Below, piece after piece: positions 1 to 31,738 of a DNA stretch of 31,779 nucleotides. A model generated the notes under the pieces. The model saw only the letters and a program-made list of their open reading frames with translations. It did no database searches and had not been told where the DNA came from. Source of the DNA: a virus; IMG/VR virus record IMGVR_UViG_3300035670_000882, positions 1 through 31,779 of that record; one strand, given 5' to 3'. Position 1 is the stretch's first letter. Each line of letters opens with the position of its first letter. A program made the translations under genes and the position numbers.

Positions 1-1212
1 GTCGATGTAGGCGATGTGGTGGCCGGTGTTGAGTTGTTGGGTGGCTGCGGTGAGGGCGATCCATGTTTTTCCGGAGGCGGATTCGCCGAAGATCATGTTG
101 AGTCGTCCGGGGTAGAGGAGGTGGGTTCCGTCGGTGCGTTGGAGGATGGTGGGTTGGAGGGGTTCGTGGGTGCCGGTGAAGTAGGGGGTGAGGTCGATGG
201 GGGTCCAGGTGGAGGTGGTGTCGGGGTCGTCTGGGGTGGGTTCCTGCGCTGTCTGGAGGGCTTCTGAGGGGGGTTGGGTGGGGATGTGGGGTGTGGGTGC
301 GGGGGTGAGGTTTGGGAGGCGGAGAGAGGCTGTGAGTGCCCGGTAGTCGCCTCCGTGGTTGCGGTGGGCGGTGTAGGCGAACCGGGTGTAGTTCCCTTCG
401 GGGAGCCACGGGATCGAGGTGGTGAAAACGTGGAGGAAGTCTTTGCCGTTGTGGCCGGTGGTTGCGCTGGTGCCTTCGTTGGGGTGTTTGCCGGGTCGGG
501 TCCAGTGGGTGACGCCGTCGCGGTCGGTGTGGGTGGCGGTCCAGCCGTCGGCGGTGAGGAGCTGCGCCCAGGTGGTTTCGGTGTTGTATCGGTCGGCGGG
601 TGAGTCGGTGGGTGCGAGGAAGGGGTCGCGGGTGGGGGGTGGTGCGGGGTAGGTGGCGACGGGTGGTGGGGGGTTGAGGAGGGTTTCGAGCCAGTGGGGT
701 GCGGGGGCGATGTGGTGTTGCCAGGGTGCGCGTCCGGTGGCCCAGGTGTAGGGGCGGTGTGTGGTGGGGTGGAGGGTGGGTGGGGCGAGGACTTGTCCGC
801 CGTCGCCGCGGAGGTCGATGCCGGGGCCGAGTTTGGTGCCGGCGTTGTTGCGGATTTGGAGGTTGGTGCGGAGGTAGATGTGTTGTCCGCCGGAGCCGGT
901 GTTGCAGGTGACGGTGTCAGGCAGCGGGCCGTGTTTGGTGGTGAGTTGGTTGAGGGTGGTGTAGCCGTCTGCGCCGTGGGTGTCGATGTCGAGGACGATG
1001 ATCCCGTTGCCGGTGGCGATGCCGATTCCGTGGTTGCGGTACAGCTGGGTGTACCAGCGGTGGATGATGTCGGGGTTGGTGGTGGCTTTGTTGGGCCAGT
1101 CGGGGATGCCGGGGTGTTTCGCGCCGGGTTTGATCGGGAGGACGCGGAGGTTGCAGTTGGCGAGTTGGAGGGCTGCGTCGAGGTGGTTGGTGGGTGCGAC
1201 GGGTTCAGGCAT
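1..1212 (-). CDS. Bifunctional primase-polymerase / helicase, N-terminal part (cut by window edge)
   Basis: The 404 residues visible form an archaeo-eukaryotic-type prim-pol domain followed by the start of a RecA-like ATPase, a layout common in replication proteins of actinobacterial phages. Seen directly: the catalytic acidic pair in VLDIDTHG (D75, D77), the SGGQH motif ending in H111, the GIDLRGDGG segment (D133) followed by APPTLHP, and near the left edge a Walker A loop GESASGKTW. It probably primes and unwinds phage DNA. The open frame runs off the window, so the rest of the ATPase is not visible. The start is ATG at 1212, or GTG at 1218, which would give a GTGA overlap with the HNH gene upstream. 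Only the exact start and the C-terminal content are uncertain. Confidence 0.9.
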   Translation of the reverse strand, partial: MPEPVAPTNHLDAALQLANCNLRVLPIKPGAKHPGIPDWPNKATTNPDIIHRWYTQLYRNHGIGIATGNGIIVLDIDTHGADGYTTLNQLTTKHGPLPDTVTCNTGSGGQHIYLRTNLQIRNNAGTKLGPGIDLRGDGGQVLAPPTLHPTTHRPYTWATGRAPWQHHIAPAPHWLETLLNPPPPVATYPAPPPTRDPFLAPTDSPADRYNTETTWAQLLTADGWTATHTDRDGVTHWTRPGKHPNEGTSATTGHNGKDFLHVFTTSIPWLPEGNYTRFAYTAHRNHGGDYRALTASLRLPNLTPAPTPHIPTQPPSEALQTAQEPTPDDPDTTSTWTPIDLTPYFTGTHEPLQPTILQRTDGTHLLYPGRLNMIFGESASGKTWIALTAATQQLNTGHHIAYID

Positions 1213-1214
1213 GG

Positions 1215-1658
1215 TCACGGGCGGTTCTTTCTCATGAGGTTCGGGGTGATGGTGTTGTGCCATTCCTCGTGGCATTGACGGCACAATGGGTCGGTCAGAT
1301 CAACCCAGGCGTCGTGGGTGTTTCTGGTTTGCATGGCTCGAGGCCACCAATGGTGCAGCTCGACGCGCTGGTGGTTGCCGCACACTCGGCATGGGTCGCT
1401 GCATCGTTCGCAACCTGATCCGGCACAGTTTCTGCATGAGTCGTTGCCGATAAGCGGGATGTTTGCGAATTGTTCGTCGCTGAACAGTTTGCGGATTGAT
1501 TCGCGGGCGATTGGGTTTCCACGGTGTGTCTTGCCGCATTTGACGCAGCGCGGGACGAGAGCTTCGGAGCCGTTCCGGTTGATGAACCTAACAACCGTCG
1601 CGATCAACTCTTCCGATCCACAGCAAGGTATCGCCACCGCGATCTTTGGCATGGTCAT
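1215..1658 (-). CDS. HNH endonuclease-like protein with several zinc knuckles
   Basis: This 147-residue protein has a C-terminal HNH-type core: CRVCG (C90, C93), VELHHWWPRA (H102/H103), then CRQCHEEWH (C126, C129, H134), the usual arrangement of a zinc-stabilised HNH nuclease. The N-terminal half adds further CxxC pairs (C38/C41, C75/C78, C83/C86), so it may bind two or three zinc ions in total. It ends 2 bases before the prim-pol ATG. HNH proteins in phages can be homing enzymes, packaging nickases or recombination nucleases. Its place in the replication cluster, far from the terminase, makes a packaging role less likely. The family call is good; the target is unknown. Confidence 0.75.
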   Translation of the reverse strand: MTMPKIAVAIPCCGSEELIATVVRFINRNGSEALVPRCVKCGKTHRGNPIARESIRKLFSDEQFANIPLIGNDSCRNCAGSGCERCSDPCRVCGNHQRVELHHWWPRAMQTRNTHDAWVDLTDPLCRQCHEEWHNTITPNLMRKNRP

Positions 1659-10074: not shown

Positions 10075-10325
10075 TGTTCGTCTCCGTCGATGACGTATTT
10101 CGTGTCAACCCATGAGTCAACCAGGTCGGCTTGGACTGCGTTGACCATGCCGATCAGCACCCACGGGGCGGAGTCTCCGTCGTGGAGGACGTGGAGGGCG
10201 TGTTTGCCGTCTGGGGTCAACCCGGAAATGATAACGATTCCGGCGGTCGGCACGATGTTCGGCCACAGCTCCAACCCGGCCTTCGGCATCAGGTCGTTCG
10301 GGGAGATCGGCTGATATTCCCTCAC
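10071..10325 (-). CDS. Hypothetical protein
   Basis: 84 residues from GTG 10325, which overlaps the phosphoesterase stop as GTGA. It begins MREYQPISPNDLMPKAGLEL and has alternating beta strands (VIISGLTPDGKHALHVLHDG). Frames extending to 10529 lie antiphase to the phosphoesterase and are not coding. No family is recognised. Confidence 0.6.
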   Translation of the reverse strand: MREYQPISPNDLMPKAGLELWPNIVPTAGIVIISGLTPDGKHALHVLHDGDSAPWVLIGMVNAVQADLVDSWVDTKYVIDGDEQ

Positions 10326-11482
10326 TGGTCCGCCCGGTAGTGTTTGCCGTGCCACATCGCCCACCCGTTGTGGATGGCGATCTGTTCGTAGACGAAGTCG
10401 CCGGTGTCCGGGTTGTGGGGGATGACCGCCAAACCTTGCTGCCAATCCTCGTGGCGTACGAGGGGTCGTCCGTCGAGGTCGATGCCGCCTTTGGTGGAGG
10501 GGACGGCTCCGTCGATGCGGGCGAGGCATCCGGGGGTGGCGGCGAGGATGGTGCGCGGCCCGTCGTGATCTTCGCGGGTGCGTTCAGCCCATTCGCGGCG
10601 ATGAATATGACCGTAAATCACTGAGGTCTTTTCGGTGTTGAGGTATTTGTGGGCGGTGGAGCCACCGGAGGCAACTTTGTCGCCGTGGATGACACGCAAC
10701 CGTTCGGTGATCCAGACGGAGCCGGCGGGGTAACCGGGAACGTAGGTGATCCGGTGATCGTCGAATCGGCACAGGTAGGGGACGGAGAGAACGGGCCAGG
10801 AGTCGGGGGTGTTGCCTCGGCGGAGACCGAAGGCGGCTTTGGCGTTGTCAAGGATGTAGTTCGGCAAGCGTTCTTCGTGGTTGCCGGCGAGCCAGTGGAT
10901 GTCGGCGTTGGGGGCGGCTTGGCGGAGCTGCGCCGCGAGGAGGGTGGCCCGGTCGATCGTCGCCTGCGTCGTCAGGGCGTAGGCGGGGGACAGACGGTAT
11001 TTGCCGAACTCGGGGAGGTCCAGGTTGTCGCCGACGAGGACCACCTTCGTCGGGTTGGCGGCCTTGACGATCTTGAGGGCCACGGCGATCGCTGCTTCGT
11101 CGTGAGTGGCCTCCAGATCGCCTGTAACGCCCCGAAAGTACCCAATCTGCATATCCGGCAGGACGACAGCGTTCGGCCACTCAGAACGGCTTACAACGGC
11201 ACTGGGAGGGGTTGTGCGGTGGATCGGCCCCGGCTGGACCACAGGCCACTCCGGACCGGATTCCCACGATGGGGAGAACTGGATCGCGGTCAGGTCGTGG
11301 ACTTCAGCCTCACCCTCATCGTTCTTTGTGAGGGACTGGTACAGCGATACCCGTTGGACCCTGCCGATTTCGTCCAGGTCGATGCCGTTCCGCTCGAGCA
11401 TCTCGGCGATCCGCCCCAACGCCTCCCTGCGCCCCTGGGTGGTTTGGGCGGAGGTGGCGGCGATGTCGTCAGCGAGGCTCAC
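10322..11482 (-). CDS. Calcineurin-like metallophosphoesterase
   Basis: 386 residues from GTG 11482. The metallophosphatase motifs are in order: VLPDMQIG (D110, Q112), VLVGDNLD (G151-D155), LAGNHEER (N201, H202, E203), VIHGDK (H266) and YGHIHRREW (H292, H294). Motif I is DxQ rather than the classical DxH, a variant common in phage members. The first 90 residues are helical (RREALGRIAEMLERNG) and may bind DNA or protein. Likely a di-metal nuclease or phosphatase of the replication region. It overlaps the preceding gene by 14 bases and the next as GTGA. Confidence 0.85.
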   Translation of the reverse strand: MSLADDIAATSAQTTQGRREALGRIAEMLERNGIDLDEIGRVQRVSLYQSLTKNDEGEAEVHDLTAIQFSPSWESGPEWPVVQPGPIHRTTPPSAVVSRSEWPNAVVLPDMQIGYFRGVTGDLEATHDEAAIAVALKIVKAANPTKVVLVGDNLDLPEFGKYRLSPAYALTTQATIDRATLLAAQLRQAAPNADIHWLAGNHEERLPNYILDNAKAAFGLRRGNTPDSWPVLSVPYLCRFDDHRITYVPGYPAGSVWITERLRVIHGDKVASGGSTAHKYLNTEKTSVIYGHIHRREWAERTREDHDGPRTILAATPGCLARIDGAVPSTKGGIDLDGRPLVRHEDWQQGLAVIPHNPDTGDFVYEQIAIHNGWAMWHGKHYRADQ

Positions 11483-21789: not shown

Positions 21790-22635
21790 CTAGCCCCGCT
21801 GAGGGGTTCGCCACCAAAAGAAGTGCGCCACCAGCGCAACAACCACCCATTCTGCCCCAATATGGGTTGACGCTGCCACCGCCATTGCGGGGCCGGCAGC
21901 GTGAGCGACAAGGCGCACATGATCCGTCGCCCCGAGCAGTTGCAGGTGCGCCACGACGAGGACGACGATCAACTGCCACGGTGCGTCATACAAACCGACC
22001 AGGGTGACGCCGAACGGGGCGACGAACCACCAGGCGTCGCGGGCGTGCGGAAGATGCCGAGGCCATGCGGTGCGGATCGGGTGGTCAGCGATTTCTTGGA
22101 ACATGGGGCCGAACGGCGACGGACCCGGTCGGGCAACCACGGCCCGCACCGCCGGGGCCGCCAGGGCGATCAAAGGTACCGGCGACATGACCCACAGGGC
22201 GGGCCAGATCGGGGCGGATTCTTTGATCATGCCCGCCACGGTGAACAGGGCGACAGCCAAAGGCCACCAGCCGTGTTCGAGCGCGGCAACCCCCAACAGG
22301 TTCAGGGCGGTAGTGGGCAGGTCGACCCCGACGGGGATCACCACATTGGGGCCGAGGATGCCGGGGAGGCCGATGATCAGGCCGGCGACGAGGACCGCCT
22401 GATACAGCTCGTCACCCGCTGCCAGACGCCACCAGCCCGCTCCTAAGGCGATGAGAGGCCACGAAACCGCCCAGATGGCCCACCACCGCCACATGACGTT
22501 TCGGCACGCCCACGGAAGCAACCAGCGCAGATAGAACGGGCGTGGCGTCGGCTTCCCCTCAACCATGAGCCACATGTGGGCGGCGTCAGGGCCGAGGGGT
22601 ATCTGGCGGCCAGTCGAGGTCAGAAACATGAACAT
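21790..22635 (-). CDS. Polytopic membrane protein of the glycosylation cassette
   Basis: 281 residues from ATG 22635 (TGATG overlap, GGGAGGA just upstream). After a polar start containing KPTPRPFYLRWLLPWACRN come about seven or eight hydrophobic spans (AIWAVSWPLIALGAGWWRLA, AVLVAGLIIGLPGILGPNVV, VVVALVAHFFWW and others). The PFYLRWLLPW segment recalls GT-C-type membrane glycosyltransferases or lipid-sugar proteins, but no catalytic motif can be confirmed. Neighbouring two soluble glycosyltransferases, it may supply or move a lipid-linked sugar. A membrane protein in the middle of head genes is unusual. Confidence 0.65.
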   Translation of the reverse strand: MFMFLTSTGRQIPLGPDAAHMWLMVEGKPTPRPFYLRWLLPWACRNVMWRWWAIWAVSWPLIALGAGWWRLAAGDELYQAVLVAGLIIGLPGILGPNVVIPVGVDLPTTALNLLGVAALEHGWWPLAVALFTVAGMIKESAPIWPALWVMSPVPLIALAAPAVRAVVARPGPSPFGPMFQEIADHPIRTAWPRHLPHARDAWWFVAPFGVTLVGLYDAPWQLIVVLVVAHLQLLGATDHVRLVAHAAGPAMAVAASTHIGAEWVVVALVAHFFWWRTPQRG

Positions 22636-23270
22636 CAGTCCTCCCGATGGTGGTGGTGGTAGGTGAACGCCGGGTTCTCCCAAAATCCACCGGGCAAATC
22701 GGCCACCTTCAGGTCATACAACCGGACGATGTACGGGAAGGACAGTTGGTCTTGGTAGGTCAGCGTGTCGTTGTGTGCAAACCACTGTGCCGCCGCCAAC
22801 CGCGGTCGCACACCCGCCGCCCACCCAAGAATCCCCGTCTGCCACAAACCACCATGCGGGGGCATCTTCCGTCGGCGGAGGAAGTCCATCTGTGCGCCGA
22901 TGGGCTGACCTGCGTACTTCAGCAACGGCACCGAGGCGGCGACCTCCTCGTAGACACAGTCGCGGTGAATGTGGCGGAGGAGCGCAACGTCGTGGGTTTC
23001 CAACAGCTCCTCGATCTGGATCAAATACTCCAGGTCGCGCCACTGAATCGACCCATCCAACCACAGGGCTTTACCATCGGTCGGTGGGTGGCAACGGTGC
23101 CACTTCGCGGACAGCCGCGGATGATCAAACCGGCCCGCTTCCCAGCGCACCTCCCACCCGTTCGGCTCGAGGTTCGGGTTGTCGGTGAACGCCACCCACT
23201 CCACACCCTGCATCGTCGGGTGCGGACGCAGGGTGTCATAGTCCCCATAAATCGCCGTGTAGACGATCAT
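22635..23270 (-). CDS. DUF616-type glycosyltransferase-like protein
   Basis: 211 residues. MIVYTAIYGDYDTLRPHP, EWVAFTDNPNLEPNGWEVRW, PRLSAKWHRCHP, then KALWLDGSIQW match the DUF616 (TOD1/MUCI70-like) group. These are nucleotide-sugar glycosyltransferases in which the LDG-type aspartate takes the place of DxD. Family relatives occur in plants and bacteria. It ends with FTYHHHHRED. Start and stop both form TGATG overlaps, tying the three cassette genes together. Acceptor unknown. Confidence 0.75.
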   Translation of the reverse strand: MIVYTAIYGDYDTLRPHPTMQGVEWVAFTDNPNLEPNGWEVRWEAGRFDHPRLSAKWHRCHPPTDGKALWLDGSIQWRDLEYLIQIEELLETHDVALLRHIHRDCVYEEVAASVPLLKYAGQPIGAQMDFLRRRKMPPHGGLWQTGILGWAAGVRPRLAAAQWFAHNDTLTYQDQLSFPYIVRLYDLKVADLPGGFWENPAFTYHHHHRED

Positions 23271-24634
23271 CAGCCGAACTGCTTCAACCGCTTCTGGAAC
23301 AACCGCCGATCCTGCTCCGCAAACCTGGACCCCACCTCGTACACCTCGTCCTTTGCGGCCTTGCCGACCATCGGGTGAAAATGCTCCACCTCCGACGCCA
23401 ACGCCGCCTGAAACTGGCGACGCTGTTTCGCCGCGGTGATGATCTCGTCGTCAACGAACCAGTGCCGGTACCCCTCATGGCAGATCACACCAGGACCATC
23501 CCACGACGCACCCACCTGATCGATGTAGTCGCGACGGATCAACGGGTGTGTGGCATGTTCCCCGCGCATCACCCTCGGGTTCGCCAAATCGTTCGTCCCG
23601 ACCACCGACACCTGATAGCGGCGAGCAATGTCCTGCGCCTGATCCAACCAGCCGGCACGGAACCGCACGTCGTCACCGACCAACAACACCCACGGGTTGC
23701 TCGAGCGGTGATAGGCAAAGTTGACCTTCTCGGCGAACGTGCCGTCACGGAAACACACCTCGCCACCCAACGCCATCACCAACTCATGCTTCGCGTGATC
23801 GTCCTCGTTCAACACCCACAGCGGGCGCGCCAACCCGGTCGACGCCACCAACGACTCCATCAACGGGGCCACATTGTCCATCCGACCCGGCAACGACGGC
23901 ACGATCACATCGACCCGCTCCCGCGCCGGCGGAGCCACAAACGACGCCCAAAAATCCGACTCACCCAACCACAACTGCTTCAGATGGGTGGTGCGAATCC
24001 CAGTGTGAACGTGCAACGGAATGTCCAACGCCTGCGTCCGAACAAAGAACGAAATGTCCTCACCCATCACCGAATCATCCGTTCCGGTGACACGGGTGAA
24101 CCATGTCGGGCCGTAGTTCTCCAGCACCAGCTCGGCAACGCGGCGGTGGATCAGCAGCATCGCGGCACCCGTCGCAGCGCACTGCACCAACGAATTCACC
24201 GGATAATGGGCGCGACCCGTGAACCGCCAATGACCATCATCGTGCTGGATGTAGTCAAAGATCGTCGGGCGGGGCACACACCGGAACCCGTGCGAACCAT
24301 CGTCGAACGCTTCCCGCTGTGCGAAACACAACCCGCCAACGATCGGACGTTGCATTGGATCGGCAACCGACAACAACTGGTCCAGCACCACCGGTTCGAA
24401 TCCCATGTCGGCATCAACCATCAGCACCCACTCGGCGTCCGACTCCAACAACGACTGCATCAACTTGTTCCGACCCTCAGGCAAACCTCCCGTGGCGCAC
24501 TTCACCGACGACCACGAATGCAACCGGTGACCATGCGACAGGTCGTAGCCGACCAACGCCATCAGCGACTTGTGGAAAGATGCGGCGATTTCGTTCGGGT
24601 GCAAATACCCGAACATCACATCCTGCTTAGCCAC
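23270..24634 (-). CDS. Two-domain GT-A glycosyltransferase
   Basis: 454 residues from GTG 24634; longer frames upstream are Arg/Cys-rich nonsense. Domain 1 (about 1-235) is a GT2-like fold with GGLPEGRNKLMQSLLES, WVLMVDADMG (DxD at D74/D76) and GEDISFFVRT late in the domain. Domain 2 (from about 241) starts again with VDVIVPSLPGRMDN, then PWVLLVGDDVRF (D321/D322) and a GYRHWFVDDEI motif, so it looks like a second GT-A domain. The protein could add two sugars or polymerise. It lies directly after the small capsid-associated gene. Confidence 0.8.
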   Translation of the reverse strand: MAKQDVMFGYLHPNEIAASFHKSLMALVGYDLSHGHRLHSWSSVKCATGGLPEGRNKLMQSLLESDAEWVLMVDADMGFEPVVLDQLLSVADPMQRPIVGGLCFAQREAFDDGSHGFRCVPRPTIFDYIQHDDGHWRFTGRAHYPVNSLVQCAATGAAMLLIHRRVAELVLENYGPTWFTRVTGTDDSVMGEDISFFVRTQALDIPLHVHTGIRTTHLKQLWLGESDFWASFVAPPARERVDVIVPSLPGRMDNVAPLMESLVASTGLARPLWVLNEDDHAKHELVMALGGEVCFRDGTFAEKVNFAYHRSSNPWVLLVGDDVRFRAGWLDQAQDIARRYQVSVVGTNDLANPRVMRGEHATHPLIRRDYIDQVGASWDGPGVICHEGYRHWFVDDEIITAAKQRRQFQAALASEVEHFHPMVGKAAKDEVYEVGSRFAEQDRRLFQKRLKQFG

Positions 24635-24869
24635 GCTTTGTAGCCCGCTTCTCACCCGGAGCCGCCGACGCCGACTCCACAGGGCGGGAACGCTCCCCAC
24701 GGATCTTCGGCGGCATCTCCGCAAACAAATCAGGGCGTGACACGACGAACGGGTCGTCGGCATACCAGGCTTCCCCGGCGAGCATCGACACCAGCAACCC
24801 GGTGTGCGGGTTCGAGGTGGACAGCGACGCCTGAGCAAAAACGATTCTTGGTGCGGTCATGGCGGTCAT
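24627..24869 (-). CDS. Small head-associated protein
   Basis: 80 residues (ATG 24869, or ATG 24860). The core APRIVFAQASLSTSN...SMLAGEAWYADDPFVVSRPD...LFAEMPP resembles short proteins that follow the major capsid gene in many actinophages, where 'ST' and 'DDP' segments are conserved; their role is unclear, possibly head completion. The tail is low-complexity. Its stop overlaps the glycosyltransferase GTG by 8 bases. Confidence 0.6.
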   Translation of the reverse strand: MTAMTAPRIVFAQASLSTSNPHTGLLVSMLAGEAWYADDPFVVSRPDLFAEMPPKIRGERSRPVESASAAPGEKRATKRG

Positions 24870-25028: not shown

Positions 25029-26408
25029 TCAGGTGTTCTGGAGGAGGCGGAACGCCGCGTCGTTCACGGAGTCGAATCCGTGACGTGCGTAGGCGAACCA
25101 GCCGCGGGCACCCAGCGGGCGACCGTTGGTGACACCGAACAGGTGGGGGACCAGCTCGACCGTCATGCCGGCGCGCTGCGCCACCACGTAGTTCGAGAAG
25201 TCGCCGACCACCAGGATGTTCGCTGCACCGGTCGTCCCGGTGAACTCCGGGGCGTAGTCCGACGTGATGATCGGACGACCCAGAAGGGTTCCGACACCAC
25301 CAGCGGCGAGGTTCACCGTGTAGTACGCACCGTCGGAGTCGGCCGCGAACTTGCGGATCTCGTTCTCCACCGAGGTCGACATGACCCAGGTTGCACGGCT
25401 GCGGTACCGCTCCGGCAGAGCCTTCCACACCTTGAGGATGTCGACTGCGCCGAGCGCACCGTCGGTCGTCACAGCAACCTCCGAGCCGGCGGTGGCGTCG
25501 ATCGCGGTGAAGATACCAACCGGGGTGGTCCCGGTCATGGTCTGCTTGGCAACGAGGTCGACGTAGCCCTGGTCGAGAAGACGGCGCATCTCCTCGGCGA
25601 AGCCGGGGTAGTCCTGACCGATCTCGATCGAGTACGGAATGAACCCACGCGCCGAGTAGACGTCGATCGACGGCTGAGCCAGCGTCGGGGAGTCATCGGA
25701 CACCTCTTCGAGCTCCGCGTCGTACGACCAGGCGGTGCCAGCCGAGCTGACGCCGTTCCACTTGTCGGTCGTGATCGTGACCACCCGTGCCACCGACAGC
25801 AGCGGGGCATCCGCCGCACCCGAAGTAAGGATAATTGAGGGATCGATGAGAACGGGAACCCCGTACCCTCCCGCGGAGTCGGCACCCGACATCGCACGGA
25901 ACTCGTTGATCGCCTGCGCCTCCTCAGCGGTGTACGCCGGGTTCGTCTGGGTGACACCCTTCATGAACGCCGAACGGTACGCCTCGTTCTCGGTGAGAAC
26001 CAGACGCTTGGCGATCTCGCCACCGTCGGTCACCTCGTTACGGGTCGCCAGCAGGGTCTCCAGGTGACGCTCCTGATGGGCGCCGAGACGGGCCTTCTCA
26101 GCGATGCGGAGGGCGGCGTCACGCATTTCCTTGCGGGATGCGCGGCGAACGTCCACCGACTCGTCATTGGACTTGATGATCTGGGGTGCGTCGAAACCGG
26201 CGGCACGCTCGGTCACAACCGACTTCGCGGCTGCGATGCGTGCGGCGCGGGCCTCAGCGGCATCCAGTTCGGCCTTGCGGGCCTCGAACTCCTCGAGCGC
26301 GGCGTCCAAACGGGCGTCGTCCTCCGGGGAGATGTCGTCGGCAGCTGCGAGCTTCTCGATTTCGCTCTGAAGCGCAGCAACCTTGGAACGAAGCTCTTCC
26401 ATGAGCAT
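25029..26408 (-). CDS. Major capsid protein (HK97 fold)
   Basis: 459 residues. Residues 1-60 are a coiled coil (ELRSKVAALQSEIEKLAAAD, ALEEFEARKAELDAAEARAA), the delta/scaffold segment normally removed by the prohead protease. From about residue 150 the HK97 shell domains follow: GGYGVPVLIDPSIIL, ARGFIPYSIEIGQDYPGF, the KALPERYRSRATWVMSTS helix-strand and VGDFSNYVVAQRAGMTVELV. ATG 26408 forms a TAATG overlap with the protease; ATG 26402, two codons later, has better spacing to AAGGAAG. Two strong hairpins follow. Confidence 0.93.
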   Translation of the reverse strand: MLMEELRSKVAALQSEIEKLAAADDISPEDDARLDAALEEFEARKAELDAAEARAARIAAAKSVVTERAAGFDAPQIIKSNDESVDVRRASRKEMRDAALRIAEKARLGAHQERHLETLLATRNEVTDGGEIAKRLVLTENEAYRSAFMKGVTQTNPAYTAEEAQAINEFRAMSGADSAGGYGVPVLIDPSIILTSGAADAPLLSVARVVTITTDKWNGVSSAGTAWSYDAELEEVSDDSPTLAQPSIDVYSARGFIPYSIEIGQDYPGFAEEMRRLLDQGYVDLVAKQTMTGTTPVGIFTAIDATAGSEVAVTTDGALGAVDILKVWKALPERYRSRATWVMSTSVENEIRKFAADSDGAYYTVNLAAGGVGTLLGRPIITSDYAPEFTGTTGAANILVVGDFSNYVVAQRAGMTVELVPHLFGVTNGRPLGARGWFAYARHGFDSVNDAAFRLLQNT

Positions 26409-27856
26409 TACTTCCTTTTCAGGTTGAGCAGGGCCGCAGCCCTGCGTTGATTCTTGGAACGAGTCGAGTGACCAGGTTCGGTCGGCTCGTCTACAGGTTC
26501 AGCGGCCAACTGGGCGGGGTCGGTGCCGGCAGCAAGCAACACAGCAATCTCTTGCCGTGTCTCCGGATCAGCGAGCGCAGTGAGAACTTCTCGGCTGCGA
26601 ACACCAACGGAGGTTTGCTCGTATGCGGGGAACACTACAGGGCCAGCCTCATACAGCGCAATCTCACTGATCGTGCGTTCCGGCATCTTGTCCGCACCGC
26701 GACGCCACTGGTCCTTGATGACCCGGAACCGGAACGACATGCCGGTGATCGCACCGTCGCGGATCGCGTCGCGCACCGGCTCGACCAGCCAGTTGTCGGA
26801 CAGGCGACCGCGGACGAACAGACCGTTCTCGTCCTCGCGGAGGCTGGTGAACACCCCGAGCGGGATCGACCCGATCAGCGGGTGCGTGCCGTGATCAAAC
26901 TGAAGAACCGGCATCCGCTCCGACAGCGTTTTCTTGAACGCACCGGGGGCGATCCGCTCACGGAACGTCCCTTCCCACGAATCAATTTCGGTCCAGGCGT
27001 CAAACACCGCCGCGTAACCCTCAAGGGTGTTCCCGTCGGAACCTTCCGCAGCCTCGAACGACATCTGGCGCACCAAATTGTCCTTCGGAGCCTCGAACCG
27101 GAACTCTTCATCTTCCATAGTGCTAGACCTTTCAGCTTTGATCTGCTCAGACTTTGTCTCGAACCATTCACGGGCAGGTTGCGGGTCGAGCGGATCAATA
27201 CCCCACAAATAATGCGCCACCGCACCAGCACCCGGCCACCCATCAGCATCCGCGTCACTGTTCTGCGCCGCATCCAAATCAACAGCGTGACGGGCACCCC
27301 ACGCCGCCGCCCGAACAACCTTGTCCTCCGAAATGTTCCCCGCCGCCATCTCACGGGCCTCACGGATCGTGCGGGGCACCAACCCGTCACCACCGAACCC
27401 TTCCTCACGCAACTCCAACCCACGGGTCGCAGCGTCACGGATGTACTGGGGCAGATCGAGTGTCACCTGACGGTACTGATCTTCTTCGTCGTCCTTCGCC
27501 GCCGCGGCCTCAGCGGGTTGCCATGCGTCGCAGTAGAAGTCGCCGCGCACATAATCATCCCAACGGGAACACCACACGCTCACCCCATCGGGGGCCACCA
27601 TGGACTCATCGTAGAAGGCGCAGTTTCCACAGGCCCGGCCCTCCGGCACGTCGTCCGAGACAGCCGGACGGTATGCCTCCGGCAACGCACGCACCGACCG
27701 CTCCCCACCCGGCTCGATCCCCTCAGCAATCGAAACAGCAACCATCTGATCAACCGCATCACCTTTCGTTGTGTGGCACCCGATCACCTCACCGTCAGCC
27801 TTCACAACCGCCCACCCCGAGCAATCAGGGTTGTTGTCCTCGATGAAGTACGGCAT
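26408..27856 (-). CDS. Prohead protease with N-terminal cysteine-cluster domain
   Basis: 482 residues. The C-terminal part is a U35/HK97-type capsid maturation protease: EGYAAVFDAWTEI, FRERIAPGAFKKTL, LQFDHGTHPLIGS (H322), GAITGMSFRFRV (S374) and LYEAGPVVFPAYEQT. Before it lie about 246 extra residues: a short leader (GCHTTKGDAVDQMVAVSIAE), a cysteine module C76, C79, C96, C109 resembling high-potential iron-sulfur proteins, and a helical part (LVPRTIREAREMAAGNISED...VAHYLWGIDPLDP). An internal ATG at 27118 (M247) has its own Shine-Dalgarno and would give a 236-residue protease alone. It cleaves the capsid delta region during maturation. Confidence 0.85.
   Translation of the reverse strand: MPYFIEDNNPDCSGWAVVKADGEVIGCHTTKGDAVDQMVAVSIAEGIEPGGERSVRALPEAYRPAVSDDVPEGRACGNCAFYDESMVAPDGVSVWCSRWDDYVRGDFYCDAWQPAEAAAAKDDEEDQYRQVTLDLPQYIRDAATRGLELREEGFGGDGLVPRTIREAREMAAGNISEDKVVRAAAWGARHAVDLDAAQNSDADADGWPGAGAVAHYLWGIDPLDPQPAREWFETKSEQIKAERSSTMEDEEFRFEAPKDNLVRQMSFEAAEGSDGNTLEGYAAVFDAWTEIDSWEGTFRERIAPGAFKKTLSERMPVLQFDHGTHPLIGSIPLGVFTSLREDENGLFVRGRLSDNWLVEPVRDAIRDGAITGMSFRFRVIKDQWRRGADKMPERTISEIALYEAGPVVFPAYEQTSVGVRSREVLTALADPETRQEIAVLLAAGTDPAQLAAEPVDEPTEPGHSTRSKNQRRAAALLNLKRK
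27118..27133 (-). promoter_or_regulatory. Internal ribosome-binding site and start for the protease domain
   Basis: AAAGGT lies 8 bases before the in-frame ATG at 27118-27116, at the junction between the Cys/helical extension and the protease domain. This supports a second, shorter product. Confidence 0.45.
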
Positions 27857-29142
27857 CAGACAGCCCCAGCCCCCGGTGCCTGCAACTGCACCGACAACGT
27901 CCCCGTATGCACCAACCGAGTCATGTCACCCGTCGTCACCGCATCAATGACGGACTGTGGCTCGAAACCACCGTCGACGAGGGTTCGCATTGTTTGGGCG
28001 TCGCGGGCGCGGATCTCCGCACCATCGAGGACATCTTCCTGCAAGAACGACACGTCACGGTCGTCGTACCACAAACGGGACGCCGGATCAGGTGGCGGCA
28101 CCAACGCCTGCAACGCACCAGCCGCCGACCGCCACAACGGGCGCACCGTCCCATCCGCAAACCGGCGACGAGCCGCCGTGTAATTCCCGGCGTTCAACGC
28201 CGAACCAGCCAACCCCTCCGAAATCCCAACGATCGACGCCGGCACACCAGCCGCCGCCGCAATCCTCGTCTCACCGGCACCCTGCACCGCCTTGAACGAC
28301 AACTGATCCAACGTCGCCCCAACAACCTTCACATCAGCACCCGAACCCAAATACAACGTCTTGAACGCCTGCGCCGCACCACGATGCCCCGACTCCATCC
28401 GCTCCCGAAACTTCTTAAACGACTCCTCCGACACCGACGGATCAAACTTCACCACCAAATTCGGCGTCGCACTATTGCGAAGATACGCGTGCTTGTAGGT
28501 GGTCATTTCCTGATCAGCGGACACATCCGGCAACACCGCACCCAACCACGACCGGCCCCGATAAGTGTGCGTCGGATCAGGCAACGGCTTGTAATGGCAC
28601 ACCTCCGACGGCTCGAAAAACGCCAACTCGGAACCGTCATCATCCGTGAACGAATACCCAACCAGCCGGCGACCAAACGGTTGACCAGACACCTGATCAA
28701 TCACATCCGCCGACGCCACCACCACACGGGTCGGGTCGAGACGCACCATCTCGCCACCGTTCAGCACCCAGTACGAGTTCCCGTACAGCGAGGCGTCAAC
28801 CTCCATGCGAGCAAGAAGATCACCCGTCGTTGCCCCGCGCCACGGCGTCTCGAGCTGCGCCAACACCGGTGTCCCGTACAACTCACCAGGGCGACCCGAC
28901 TGGTACCGCTGGAAACTGAACCGCGCCTCCGAAAACACCATCAGGCGCACCGAGATGCACGCCGCAACGATCGGATTCCGCTGCCCCTGGAGCGCGTTCA
29001 GTTCCTGCAACCCGCCTTGGGGAACAACGTATTGCATCCCGTTGAACGAGAACTCTTCCCACAGGCGCAGATAGTCCGGCCAAGAGAACTGACCGAACTC
29101 GCCACGGGCCTCACCGGCAGGACTGAACAAACGACCCAACAT
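27856..29142 (-). CDS. Portal protein (HK97 family)
   Basis: 428 residues from ATG 29142 (TGATG overlap). Typical segments are NPIVAACISVRLMVFSEARF, LLARMEVDASLYGNSYWVL, SWLGAVLPDVSADQEMTTYK, NLVVKFDPSVSEESFKKFRE and GETRIAAAAGVPASIVGISE with GSALNAGNYTAARRRFADGT. It forms the dodecameric ring through which the terminase packs DNA. The length is near the family norm. Its stop overlaps the protease ATG as TGATG. Confidence 0.92.
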   Translation of the reverse strand: MLGRLFSPAGEARGEFGQFSWPDYLRLWEEFSFNGMQYVVPQGGLQELNALQGQRNPIVAACISVRLMVFSEARFSFQRYQSGRPGELYGTPVLAQLETPWRGATTGDLLARMEVDASLYGNSYWVLNGGEMVRLDPTRVVVASADVIDQVSGQPFGRRLVGYSFTDDDGSELAFFEPSEVCHYKPLPDPTHTYRGRSWLGAVLPDVSADQEMTTYKHAYLRNSATPNLVVKFDPSVSEESFKKFRERMESGHRGAAQAFKTLYLGSGADVKVVGATLDQLSFKAVQGAGETRIAAAAGVPASIVGISEGLAGSALNAGNYTAARRRFADGTVRPLWRSAAGALQALVPPPDPASRLWYDDRDVSFLQEDVLDGAEIRARDAQTMRTLVDGGFEPQSVIDAVTTGDMTRLVHTGTLSVQLQAPGAGAV

Positions 29143-29306
29143 CAACGACCTCGCTCAACAGCCAAACCGAACAACAACAAACCAACCGCCAACACACCAC
29201 CCGCCGCAGGCCACGACACCGCACCCATCGACACAACCCCCACAATCAACCCCGACACCTGAAGGACCGTCGCCAAAAACAAACGAGAAAACCAGAAACG
29301 CATCAT
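29142..29306 (-). CDS. Small two-span membrane protein between terminase and portal
   Basis: 54 residues from ATG 29306 (TGATG overlap with the terminase stop), starting MMRFWFSRLFLATVLQVSGL and ending VLAVGLLLFGLAVERGR; two hydrophobic spans separated by a short turn. Overlaps at both ends support a real gene. Function unknown; membrane genes at this place are occasionally seen in actinophages. Confidence 0.55.
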   Translation of the reverse strand: MMRFWFSRLFLATVLQVSGLIVGVVSMGAVSWPAAGGVLAVGLLLFGLAVERGR

Positions 29307-30637
29307 CAATCCCAAGCGACCCACACGTCAGTTTTCCGCCCAACTCCACGATCCATAGCCAACGTCAACGCCACCAAAGGTGACACATCAACACCAGCAT
29401 CTTTCCTTGCCCAAACCCACGAATCGCCAACCGACCGACGCTTCACCCCGGCCACAGCCGAATCCAAAACCTCAGACGAACGAACCCGTACCTGACGATC
29501 CGCCAATTTGTCAAACAACAACCCGCAAGCATACGCCATATCCCGCGTCTGGTACCGCACAACACGAACACCACGCCCCTCCAACTCGTCAACCAACGAC
29601 CCTGCCGGCCCCGACATATCCACCGCGACCTCGGCGTTCCACCTGGCGCATAACTCGACAACCCGATCCACAACCCACCCCACACCAGCACGGAACTCCA
29701 CCAACTCCCCACGCAACTCCGTGTCACCAACACAGATCGAGGCACCCGACCGCTCCGGATTCACATCCAACCCAAACCTCAGATCCCCCTCCGGTTTCAC
29801 CTCAGCCCCACACGCCGCATCCCACACCTCAACCGGGATCACCCGCTCATCCGAAATGGTCCGCTGGTTCAGCATCGCCCGCCGGAAATCACCCTCGGAC
29901 ATCGTTTGGCGGGCATGGGCCACCGTCGACTCCGTAATCGTGTGCCCCAACGCTGGCATACACGACCACCACGTCTCCGGATCATCAATATCGGCGTCCG
30001 GATCAGCGGACCACTCGAAATAGGCGATGCCCCGCTCGGCACCGTCCGCGATCGCCTGCCGGCCCGCCTCGATCTTCCGGTTCAGATACACCGATGCCTC
30101 AGTCCCCATCGTCGACACCACCAACAGCTGCGCGTCCGCCTTCGTTGCCATCGCCGGCAACAACGCCTGCTCCCGCCGATCATCCGAATCCGAAAACGCC
30201 TCGTCAATCACCGCCAAATCCACAGTCCGACCATGACCCGCAGAATCCGTCGACGCCAACACATCAATCCGCGAACCATTACGAAAAATGACACCTTCGT
30301 TGCCGGCCCCGCGAAGCACCCTGGACACCGCCACCGACAACCTCGACCCCATCAACACCGGAGCCTGATCATCAATCAACTTCCGACGCGCATCCCAACC
30401 CGTCTGCGCTGTGTACGCAACCCGCTGCGCCCCACCCCACTTCAACGCCCGATGCACCTCAAACCCCAACACCAACGTCGTCTTGCCCGACTGGCGCGGA
30501 ACAGTCACAACAACCTCACGCCACGCCGGCACCCACTTACCCGTCTCCGGATCCTCAACCAGCTCGGTGCCGACATCGGCCACCAACTGCTGCCACGGCA
30601 TCAACGGCTGACCAAACTGGCGGGCCACCGCCGCCAC
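29306..30637 (-). CDS. terL: Terminase large subunit
   Basis: 443 residues from GTG 30637, one base after the small-subunit stop. ATPase: Walker A PRQSGKTT (K52), AYTAQTGWDARRKL, Walker B VDLAVIDEAF (D145, E146) and LLVVSTMGTEAS as the coupling motif. Nuclease: FGLDVNPERSG (first Asp), VAVDMSGPAGSLVDEL (second acidic site) and a C-terminal DVSPLVALTLAMDR (third). It packages DNA into the prohead and cuts the concatemer. The packaging type cannot be read from this sequence. Longer frames are antiphase to the small subunit gene. Confidence 0.93.
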   Translation of the reverse strand: MAAVARQFGQPLMPWQQLVADVGTELVEDPETGKWVPAWREVVVTVPRQSGKTTLVLGFEVHRALKWGGAQRVAYTAQTGWDARRKLIDDQAPVLMGSRLSVAVSRVLRGAGNEGVIFRNGSRIDVLASTDSAGHGRTVDLAVIDEAFSDSDDRREQALLPAMATKADAQLLVVSTMGTEASVYLNRKIEAGRQAIADGAERGIAYFEWSADPDADIDDPETWWSCMPALGHTITESTVAHARQTMSEGDFRRAMLNQRTISDERVIPVEVWDAACGAEVKPEGDLRFGLDVNPERSGASICVGDTELRGELVEFRAGVGWVVDRVVELCARWNAEVAVDMSGPAGSLVDELEGRGVRVVRYQTRDMAYACGLLFDKLADRQVRVRSSEVLDSAVAGVKRRSVGDSWVWARKDAGVDVSPLVALTLAMDRGVGRKTDVWVAWD

Positions 30638-30638
30638 C

Positions 30639-30947
30639 TCACCCCCGAGACTTCTTCGATCCTCCCTTCGGGGTGTCGCCCACCTCGGCAGACAACGAAT
30701 CAAGGAGCGCGGCGAACTCATCCTCCCCACCCACCGACAACTCCCGCACCGCAACCTCCGCCGACCGGTACTCCCGCCACAACGACGCATTGTCCGGAGC
30801 CTGATCCACCGCATCCGCCAACGCCAACAACGCCATCACCCGCGCAGAATCCACGTCCTCGAGCCTGCCCAACTGACGCAACGCCTCGACCGTCGCCTCC
30901 GCCGCGGTGCGGTTCCGGCCCCACGCCGGGTTCGGTTTCATAACCAT
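30639..30947 (-). CDS. Terminase small subunit-like protein
   Basis: 102 residues from ATG 30947 (TGATG overlap); ATG 30941 is equally plausible. A basic start (KPNPAWGRNRTAAEATVEAL) and a helical body (DSARVMALLALADAVDQAPD, then SLWREYRSAEVAVREL) followed by a Gly/Lys/Ser tail fit small terminase-like proteins placed directly before terL in actinophages. A DNA-binding motif is not obvious, so the call relies on position. Confidence 0.6.
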   Translation of the reverse strand: MVMKPNPAWGRNRTAAEATVEALRQLGRLEDVDSARVMALLALADAVDQAPDNASLWREYRSAEVAVRELSVGGEDEFAALLDSLSAEVGDTPKGGSKKSRG

Positions 30948-31738
30948 CAAACACCGCACATTCCTGAACACTCAAACTCAAAATCGTCAAACAACGACGG
31001 AGGCTCCGCCTCCACCGCCTCACCCAACGGGCGCAACGACCGATGCAAAAATACATCACCACGGTTACGCCACTTGTCACGCACCAACAAATCCACCTGA
31101 ACAGCATCCTCAAACGCCTCCGGCGACTTCCGACGCATCTCCACCCACGACACCTGCGACCGAAACGGACACCCAACACACGACGACCGCGGAGCCACAC
31201 CAAACCCACGATCCGCCAACCAGCGCTCACAATCCCCACGAGTCATCCCCACCTCGATCAACGGATACCGCCACGCCGTCCTCGTCGGAGCATCACCACG
31301 AATCCGGCCAGTCTCATCCGTCGAAATCCCCAACCACACCTCCAAAAACAAATCAGCCCGCAACCGGCCACGCTGACCCGCACCCATCATCACCCTGGCC
31401 TCCCGCATCACCGGCTTCATCTTCAACTGCCGCGAACACTGATGCTGCAACTGACCCTTGCCGCCATCCAGCCGGCGCACATGAAGCGGCGCCATGATCC
31501 GCTTCCCATCCTCCCGAATCAAATCCTCACGAATGTTCGCAGGCTTCACGACCCGCAGTTCAAGATCGGCCTTGTCGCATTCGGGCCGCAAAACGTCGTC
31601 CAACCACCGGTACGTCTCCGGCATTTCCCACCCCAGATCCACGAAGATCGCCACGTCGGGCCGCTCGATCTCGCCGCGGCACGCCATCAACAACAGGGTC
31701 GACGACTGAACGCCGGCCCCAAGACTCAGAACCTTCAC
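30947..31738 (-). CDS. PP-loop ATPase, PAPS-reductase family
   Basis: 263 residues from GTG 31738, with GGAGGT about 8 bases upstream. The PP-loop is SLGAGVQSST (residues 5-14). HQCSRQLKMKP (C101), RSSCVGCPFRS (C187, C190) and a C-terminal CSGMCGV provide further cysteines for a metal or iron-sulfur site. The family activates a substrate with ATP for sulfur or nitrogen transfer; phage members include homologues of DndC-like DNA sulfuration and tRNA-modifying enzymes. No dnd partners are visible here, so a true phosphorothioation role is unsupported. Position next to the terminase would allow action on DNA before packaging. Confidence 0.8.
   Translation of the reverse strand: MKVLSLGAGVQSSTLLLMACRGEIERPDVAIFVDLGWEMPETYRWLDDVLRPECDKADLELRVVKPANIREDLIREDGKRIMAPLHVRRLDGGKGQLQHQCSRQLKMKPVMREARVMMGAGQRGRLRADLFLEVWLGISTDETGRIRGDAPTRTAWRYPLIEVGMTRGDCERWLADRGFGVAPRSSCVGCPFRSQVSWVEMRRKSPEAFEDAVQVDLLVRDKWRNRGDVFLHRSLRPLGEAVEAEPPSLFDDFEFECSGMCGV

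Follow-up and report, generated by a model that had tools for sequence, protein, structure and literature searches.

Why should a protease that matures phage heads carry four closely spaced cysteines? The question is raised by a gene in IMG/VR virus record IMGVR_UViG_3300035670_000882, of which positions 1 to 31,779 (31,779 nucleotides, referred to here as the window) were analyzed; a metal centre is not expected in a head-assembly protease. The gene lies on the minus strand (26408..27856), is an open reading frame (ORF) from ATG to TAA, and encodes a 482-amino-acid head-operon fusion of an N-terminal domain (N-domain), a cysteine module, a helical domain and an S78 prohead protease. In the original prediction, which was made from the sequence alone, the module was likened to a high-potential iron–sulfur protein (HiPIP), and a sensor or a structural zinc site was considered. 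Judging from predicted structures, residues 56–114 very probably have a HiPIP fold, and the module is one of several exchangeable cassettes of the head operon. The reading as a whole, in which a HiPIP-fold [4Fe-4S] domain is a mobile, dispensable accessory or cargo module of this operon, seems to us about as apt to be right as wrong.

The predicted cysteine spacing is exact in the 482-residue protein. C76 (codon 27629..27631), C79 (27620..27622), C96 (27569..27571) and C109 (27530..27532), all on the minus strand, are arranged as C-x2-C-x16-C-x12-C, and the only other cysteines of the protein are at positions 12 and 27. The motif C-x2-C-x14..18-C-x12-C is found just once among the 301 stop-to-stop segments of at least 60 residues in the window, namely in this protein, and is not a chance feature. 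The predicted fusion ahead of the maturation protease is likewise present, with a further domain (residues ~129–246) between the module and the S78 domain. The Peptidase_S78 domain (PF04586; residues 268–424, 26585..27055, minus strand) is matched at E 4.9e-34 with 118.3 bits against a cut-off of 21, over model positions 6–159 of 165, and the protein therefore scores as a caudovirus prohead serine protease across the whole domain. Residues 1–479 match phrog_80, head maturation protease, at E 9.7e-84. In a search of the whole protein against Pfam at E ≤ 0.1, no domain besides the S78 protease was found.

Relatives of the module fall into two kinds: M1, the window-type module, and M2, a sister cysteine module with a different loop length that was first seen in locus L065. 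A whole-protein scan of viral contigs returned 106 relatives and contributed 80 loci; an M1 scan returned at least 558 (80 kept), and M2 scans gave 19 loci and, in the second scan, at least 562 relatives (80 kept). The ORFs of the 261 loci in total were searched with ten home-made profiles. Counts of loci (109 M1 and 104 M2 neighbourhoods) may include one contig more than once, and the other counts are of distinct sequences. Each of the 75 distinct M1 modules (profile matches at E ≤ 1e-3) has the four cysteines, with 16 (41 modules), 14 (21), 18 (8) or 15 (5) residues between the second and third and always 12 between the third and fourth. The four are likewise present in 70 of 70 distinct M2 modules, with spacings that are always 8 and 12. 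Two named phage records, left out of these counts, hold the four cysteines too. The loci had been fetched with peptide patterns, some containing cysteines (CGNC, YCDAW, C[SGA]NC, [GA][IY]C), and the invariance is thus partly selected for, with cysteine-free homologues under-sampled; since any one pattern sufficed, the remaining cysteines were free to vary. In the alignment of 46 M1 modules, Y62 (codon 27671..27673, minus strand; 46 of 46), W99, Y108 and W112 (window numbering) are invariant along with the cysteines. HiPIPs have a conserved tyrosine near the cluster. The M2 modules have a tyrosine that is invariant in 44 of 44 aligned members and aligns with the tyrosines of 3h31 and PioC, to which the M1 tyrosine is linked only via M2.

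The module is predicted to be ordered. With the window sequence placed first in the M1 alignment, AlphaFold2 gave a mean predicted local distance difference test (pLDDT) score of 82.8 and a predicted template modelling (pTM) score of 0.64, and the five models span pLDDT 61.5–82.8. The ten-residue blocks that hold the cysteines average 90–92, and the disordered stretch that would have contradicted the original prediction is not what is modelled. A Foldseek comparison of this model with 350,542 PDB chains placed HiPIPs at ranks 1–10 (best E 0.028, probability 1.00), chain B of a glycyl radical enzyme at rank 11, and further HiPIPs at ranks 12–15 and 21. In VIA-align, rows 1–14 of 17 are HiPIPs with Z of 5.4–7.2, led by 1eyt (Z 7.2, 2.4 Å over 61 residues), and rows 15–17 are glycyl-radical-enzyme complexes (Z 3.8–4.2). 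The M2 model, predicted from the alignment of 44 M2 modules with the L099 sequence first, has a pLDDT of 94.6 and a pTM of 0.85. Its Foldseek ranks 1–8 of nine matches are HiPIPs (3h31, E 5.6e-3, probability 1.00), as are 14 of 14 VIA-align rows (3h31, Z 7.2, 57 residues, 3.4 Å). The predicted models of both modules therefore show the HiPIP fold.

Sequence comparisons point to the same family. The cysteines follow the C-x2-C…C…C order of PF01355 with HiPIP-like spacing, and the Pfam HIPIP family is matched by 30 of 46 M1 members and 39 of 44 M2 members; the best-scoring members were judged by E (2.1e-4 and 2.2e-4, respectively), and their bit scores may touch the Pfam cut-off. The cysteine spacing alone was rejected as the cause of these matches, since none of 23 M1 shuffles with the cysteines held fixed (made from the first 23 of the 46 rows) matches HIPIP. 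The first five of 13 PDB matches of the M2 profile are HiPIP-family chains, namely 3h31 (E 1.1e-4), PioC (6xyv, which we take to be a HiPIP; 1.8e-3), 1hpi (0.042), 1isu (0.048) and 1hlq (0.24). The M1 and M2 profiles align with one another across the module and in register (E 1.9e-6, probability 89.6); larger alignments of the two give E 1.2e-7 and probability 94.2, but over 23 columns around the first CxxC. Each profile retrieves the site of the other in whole records at marginal E values, M1 finding the M2 site in three of six records (8e-4 to 6e-3) and M2 the M1 site in five of ten (4e-4 to 2e-3). Other families were matched as well. DUF3716 was matched by 12 of 44 M2 members, and DUF7140 (PF23601), which may be a HiPIP-like family, by 17 of 46 M1 members (best E 7.2e-4). 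In PHROGs at E ≤ 1, no match was found for the L065 M2 segment.

Several results weigh against this assignment. Searched alone against Pfam at E ≤ 10, the window module matches one family, HIPIP, weakly (E 1.3), and its 9.8 bits lie below the curated cut-off of 22; the slightly different window segment that heads the M1 alignment has no Pfam match at E ≤ 1, and the L237 protein, with 21.0 bits, also stays under the cut-off. Against the PDB, the window module gives the HiPIPs 2hip (E 0.41) and 1pih (E 0.53), both weak, amid mostly antibody chains, and the M1 profiles reach no PDB HiPIP at significance, with LIM, antibody and other chains ranking higher. Foldseek E values never fall below 0.001 for either module, and the VIA-align Z scores are below 8, a range that the tool's own note calls common. 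A LIM assignment was considered and rejected: a LIM chain came first for the initial M1 profile (E 0.29) and is absent from the six matches of the larger profile, and no LIM chain is among the first 50 of 75 rows of the M1 fold list. Antibody chains, which are on top among those six matches, appear as antibody or immunoglobulin chains in the fold list at ranks 27 and below (probability ≤ 0.02). A single match of such size is weak; the agreement of two modules, in sequence and in fold, on one small family is not. The suggested likeness to HiPIPs is largely supported, by the predicted fold, the spacing and the family-level Pfam matches, and because the window module scores below the Pfam cut-off it is called a HiPIP-fold domain rather than a certified HiPIP. 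Its cysteines quite probably hold an iron–sulfur cluster rather than zinc or nothing.

The feature that the original prediction missed is that this domain is a swappable cassette, which is absent from close relatives, and that it belongs to an accessory part which other phages encode separately from the protease. One comparison is between L025, which contains M1, and L044, which lacks it. These loci are 96.1% identical over the 2,895 bases leading up to the module and 94.8% identical after it, and the gap between these stretches (204 versus 6 bases) leaves L025 longer by 198 bases, an in-frame difference of 66 codons. In a second pair, L021 and L027, one slot is filled either by M1 or by a TUDOR-like module. 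The S78 domains are 100% identical in the first pair and 99.4% identical in the second. A quickly built tree of 147 S78 domains, in which 50 of 128 inner branches have support below 80, requires 23 changes among the labels M1, M2 and none (minimum 2; shuffled mean 64.1), so the labels are also clustered on the tree; the starred branches force at least 11 (M1), 6 (M2) and 10 (none) changes. Neither M1 nor M2 was found elsewhere in four module-less records of 31–35 kb (L029, L030, L048 and L063), which may be incomplete.

The translated relatives have a modular N-terminal half. The survey for the fusion in other phages that the original prediction had proposed finds M1 together with S78 in 87 of 94 distinct M1 ORFs, with five of the seven others cut by a contig edge, and the commonest architecture is that of the window, N-domain/M1/helical/S78 (65 distinct ORFs). 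Elsewhere, M1 is placed after an Hva1-TUDOR-like module or after the helical domain, whereas M2 is found before the helical domain, after it, or on the C-terminal side behind S78. S78 accompanies M2 in 41 of 85 distinct ORFs; 13 of the 44 without it are cut. M1 and M2 occur together in none of 109 M1 ORFs or 109 M2 ORFs. A HAD phosphatase module is present in four ORFs, two of them also with M1, and keeps its DxDxT motif in all four. Unrelated domains are thus shuffled within one polypeptide in a head context, as in polyvalent proteins. That context is seen in the neighbouring genes. Of the 109 M1 loci, 92 have a portal gene upstream on the same strand and 70 a capsid gene downstream; for the 104 M2 loci the corresponding numbers are 67 and 21, many of all these loci being cut.

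The cassettes also occur on separate genes or with other proteins. In six loci (L099, L185, L191, L199, L204 and L218), N-domain/M2/helical is a gene of its own ahead of a 198-residue S78 ORF, and in five of the six the portal gene is upstream. The protease that M1 follows in L262 and L263 is of a different type; the one scanned, from L262, matches phrog_15531 (E 6.4e-33). The proteins of L147 (M1) and of phage DSL-LC01 (M2) have a match to phrog_18402 (head maturation protease) and a stronger one to phrog_859 (named portal protein); S78 is also matched by the DSL-LC01 protein, although its 19.9 bits fall short of the cut-off of 21. In L240 (2593–4704), M2 and a Zeta-toxin-type kinase domain (E 7.4e-19) share one polypeptide with a minor head protein family match, and L251 resembles this locus by eye. 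Finally, four loci on phage contigs of 31–116 kb (L093, L243, L248 and L260) have two neighbouring free-standing M2 ORFs of ~110–150 residues each.

From the computed fold resemblance, ligand conservation, cassette exchange, operon place and separate-gene versions, a course of events can be proposed. Residues 56–114 would fold as a small HiPIP-type domain, most likely with a [4Fe-4S] cluster on its four cysteines, and this cassette would be a mobile, dispensable part of an accessory polypeptide that is encoded between the portal and capsid genes and is here fused to the protease. HK97-type proteases are taken up by the procapsid in tens of copies, and the cassette would travel in with the protease. 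Prohead 1 has ~60 protease copies in HK97 and ~90 in D3, according to an excerpt of PMC12749128, and with such numbers a fused domain should enter too. Inside, it would act as an accessory or cargo module; the protease might release it by cleavage and, at the boldest, it might be delivered with the DNA. That the domain is a head-loaded accessory is fairly likely; that it is cargo which persists or is delivered is possible, if somewhat doubtful. Its sharing of a region with a HAD phosphatase that keeps DxDxT is easier to square with cargo than with a fixed assembly part, and polyvalent proteins (PMC5512222) offer a precedent for head-protein fusions of varied domains with proposed delivery. Two observations point the other way. 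Purified D3 Prohead 2 showed cleaved capsid protein only, per the same excerpt, which speaks against a persisting protease-borne part, and the free-standing M2 pair of L243 adjoins a tail-fibre-like gene, so that the head is not the only place of M2. In the fullest version, the heads of uncultured phages would be loaded with HiPIP-fold iron–sulfur domains, an interchangeable cargo that the protease releases; this cargo would pass into the host together with the DNA and intervene there in redox or defence chemistry, as the iron–sulfur member of a head-delivered cassette set common to several different head proteases. In our estimate this version is unlikely.

An accessory or cargo role explains the data best, and the main rival is a purely structural one, in which a cluster or zinc staples a domain that docks the protease or accessory protein to the portal, scaffold or terminase and is discarded on maturation. 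The absence of protease from D3 Prohead 2 would be expected in that case, and the only non-HiPIP rows of the M1 VIA-align list, the glycyl-radical-enzyme complexes, include HiPIP-like accessory subunits without known catalytic function: in the part of PMC12590467 consulted, the gamma subunit of benzylsuccinate synthase promotes solubility and the beta subunit is proposed to gate and regulate. However, a close relative whose S78 domain is identical lacks the cassette, and the four possibly incomplete module-less records have neither M1 nor M2 at another site; the cassette is hence not required for assembly as such; we regard a purely structural role as rather unlikely. A structural zinc site within a HiPIP-shaped scaffold, with no iron–sulfur cluster, is less probable still. 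A four-cysteine site can bind zinc, weak zinc-finger model matches are found in 2 of 46 M1 members and, with three models, in 4, 3 and 1 of 44 M2 members, and the zinc proteins Survivin and a BED finger appear low in the M1 fold list (ranks 16 and 24, probability ≤ 0.04). Nevertheless, no zinc protein is among the top ten M1 or top eight M2 fold matches, C-x2-C-x8-C-x12-C (M2) and C-x2-C-x14-C-x12-C (21 of 75 M1) are the spacings of PioC and 3h31 as read from the alignments, and the invariant M2 tyrosine aligns with those of HiPIPs. In favour of a redox, oxygen or iron sensor that keeps the protease inactive until its cluster is oxidised or lost are the four invariant cysteines and the placing of what is probably a cysteine-ligated cluster next to a protease that has to act at the right time. 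Such a sensor is very improbable, however, because the module moves, disappears or sits on another gene, changes that are hard to reconcile with gating of the active site.

A single-sequence tblastn search of 50,697 named phage records found M1 in one, Pontimonas phage phiPsal1, and M2 in one, Actinomycetia phage DSL-LC01. A scan of cellular genome contigs for M1 (36 stretches, 4 relatives) placed it on four contigs of one Microbacteriaceae metagenome-assembled genome; two of these contigs also contain genes for terminase, portal, protease and capsid and are accordingly phage contigs. An origin in host genomes was rejected, as M1 was present in one of 398 genomes of that family, the same assembled genome on its four contigs. 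For M2, a search of 396 genomes from the order to which that assembly belongs lacked a positive control and is uninformative. The phage phiPsal1 was found in sequence data of a Microbacteriaceae strain, and the paper that reports it states that it is not discussed further there. The host of the window phage probably belongs to the aquatic actinobacteria.

The remaining parts of the fusion and its surroundings are as follows, all on the minus strand. The N-domain (residues 1–54, 27695..27856) weakly resembles DUF2188 (E 0.13) and contains C12 and C27, which recur in most relatives printed and are absent from L175; the HiPIP-fold cassette delineated by profiles and predicted fold occupies 27515..27691. 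The second cassette (residues 129–246, 27119..27472), for which "helical" is the label of the original prediction, belongs to phrog_2859, whose function is not annotated; it is common in the head proteins examined and has no Pfam family at E ≤ 10. The gene order is terminase, portal, fusion protease, capsid. The terminase large subunit gene is at 29306..30814, and the portal gene (27856..29145, with its start as given by the ORF tool) overlaps the protease start by one base (TGATG). The protease stop likewise overlaps, by one base (TAATG), the first ATG of the major capsid protein gene (25029..26408; Phage_capsid family), which has a second ATG 6 bases inside. Most aligned capsid rows of the window's group keep E[FY]R-A where the propeptide ends, and arginines are also found at the cassette borders; a shared cleavage rule is possible. 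Two glycosyltransferase-like genes (22635..23270 and 23270..24838) lie just past the capsid gene, and phiPsal1 likewise has a glycosyltransferase-like gene after its capsid gene. Farther away are a metallophosphoesterase gene (10322..11482; phrog_20266, E 7.1e-77), a Prim-Pol primase gene (1..1284; PF09250, E 1.2e-38) and a PAPS-reductase-like gene (30947..31738; phrog_424, E 1.1e-37). A link between the module and a neighbouring PAPS-reductase gene was considered and dropped: in 20 records compared, such a gene accompanies the module in 3 of 12 and is also present in 1 of the 8 that lack it, so no association is seen.

If this reading is correct, the HiPIP fold, otherwise seen in electron carriers and in a small number of enzyme subunits, has a place in phage head assembly. 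The comparisons also show that the HK97-type head protease gene is a docking place for exchangeable cassettes. If the cassettes are head-loaded, the gene would also be a marker for finding delivered proteins of uncultured phages. In the literature searched, which reached few subscription journals, neither a HiPIP-fold domain in a prohead protease nor a prohead protease with ejected cargo was found described.

HiPIPs are free electron carriers. Those compared here (PF01355; 3h31, 1eyt, 8z82 and PioC, 6xyv) are like the module in predicted fold, in cysteine spacing and, for M2 as aligned, in the tyrosine before the first CxxC; they differ in that the module is a domain of a phage head-operon polypeptide and, in the window, scores below the Pfam cut-off. 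The small subunits of glycyl radical enzymes (benzylsuccinate synthase beta and gamma; 2y8n chain B) also have, in the sources consulted in part, a HiPIP-like accessory fold, but belong to metabolic enzyme complexes without a phage context. Lambda gpL-type tail-tip [4Fe-4S] proteins and the RcGTA hub are phage or phage-like structural proteins with a cluster on four cysteines, and are likened here by partial descriptions; iron–sulfur clusters in phage tails are known (Tam et al. 2013, as cited in an excerpt), and the phage clusters described in the portions of literature consulted sit in tails rather than heads. The polyvalent proteins of Iyer et al. 2017 (PMC5512222) are, in the text available, multidomain proteins with shuffled domains and head-associated fusions that are proposed to be packaged and delivered; that main text does not contain the words "hipip", "iron-sulfur" or "tudor", and delivery of the window protein is a proposal. 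The closest named counterpart is the protein of phiPsal1 (MG835450), annotated only as prohead protease, which has the same domain order and all four cysteines.

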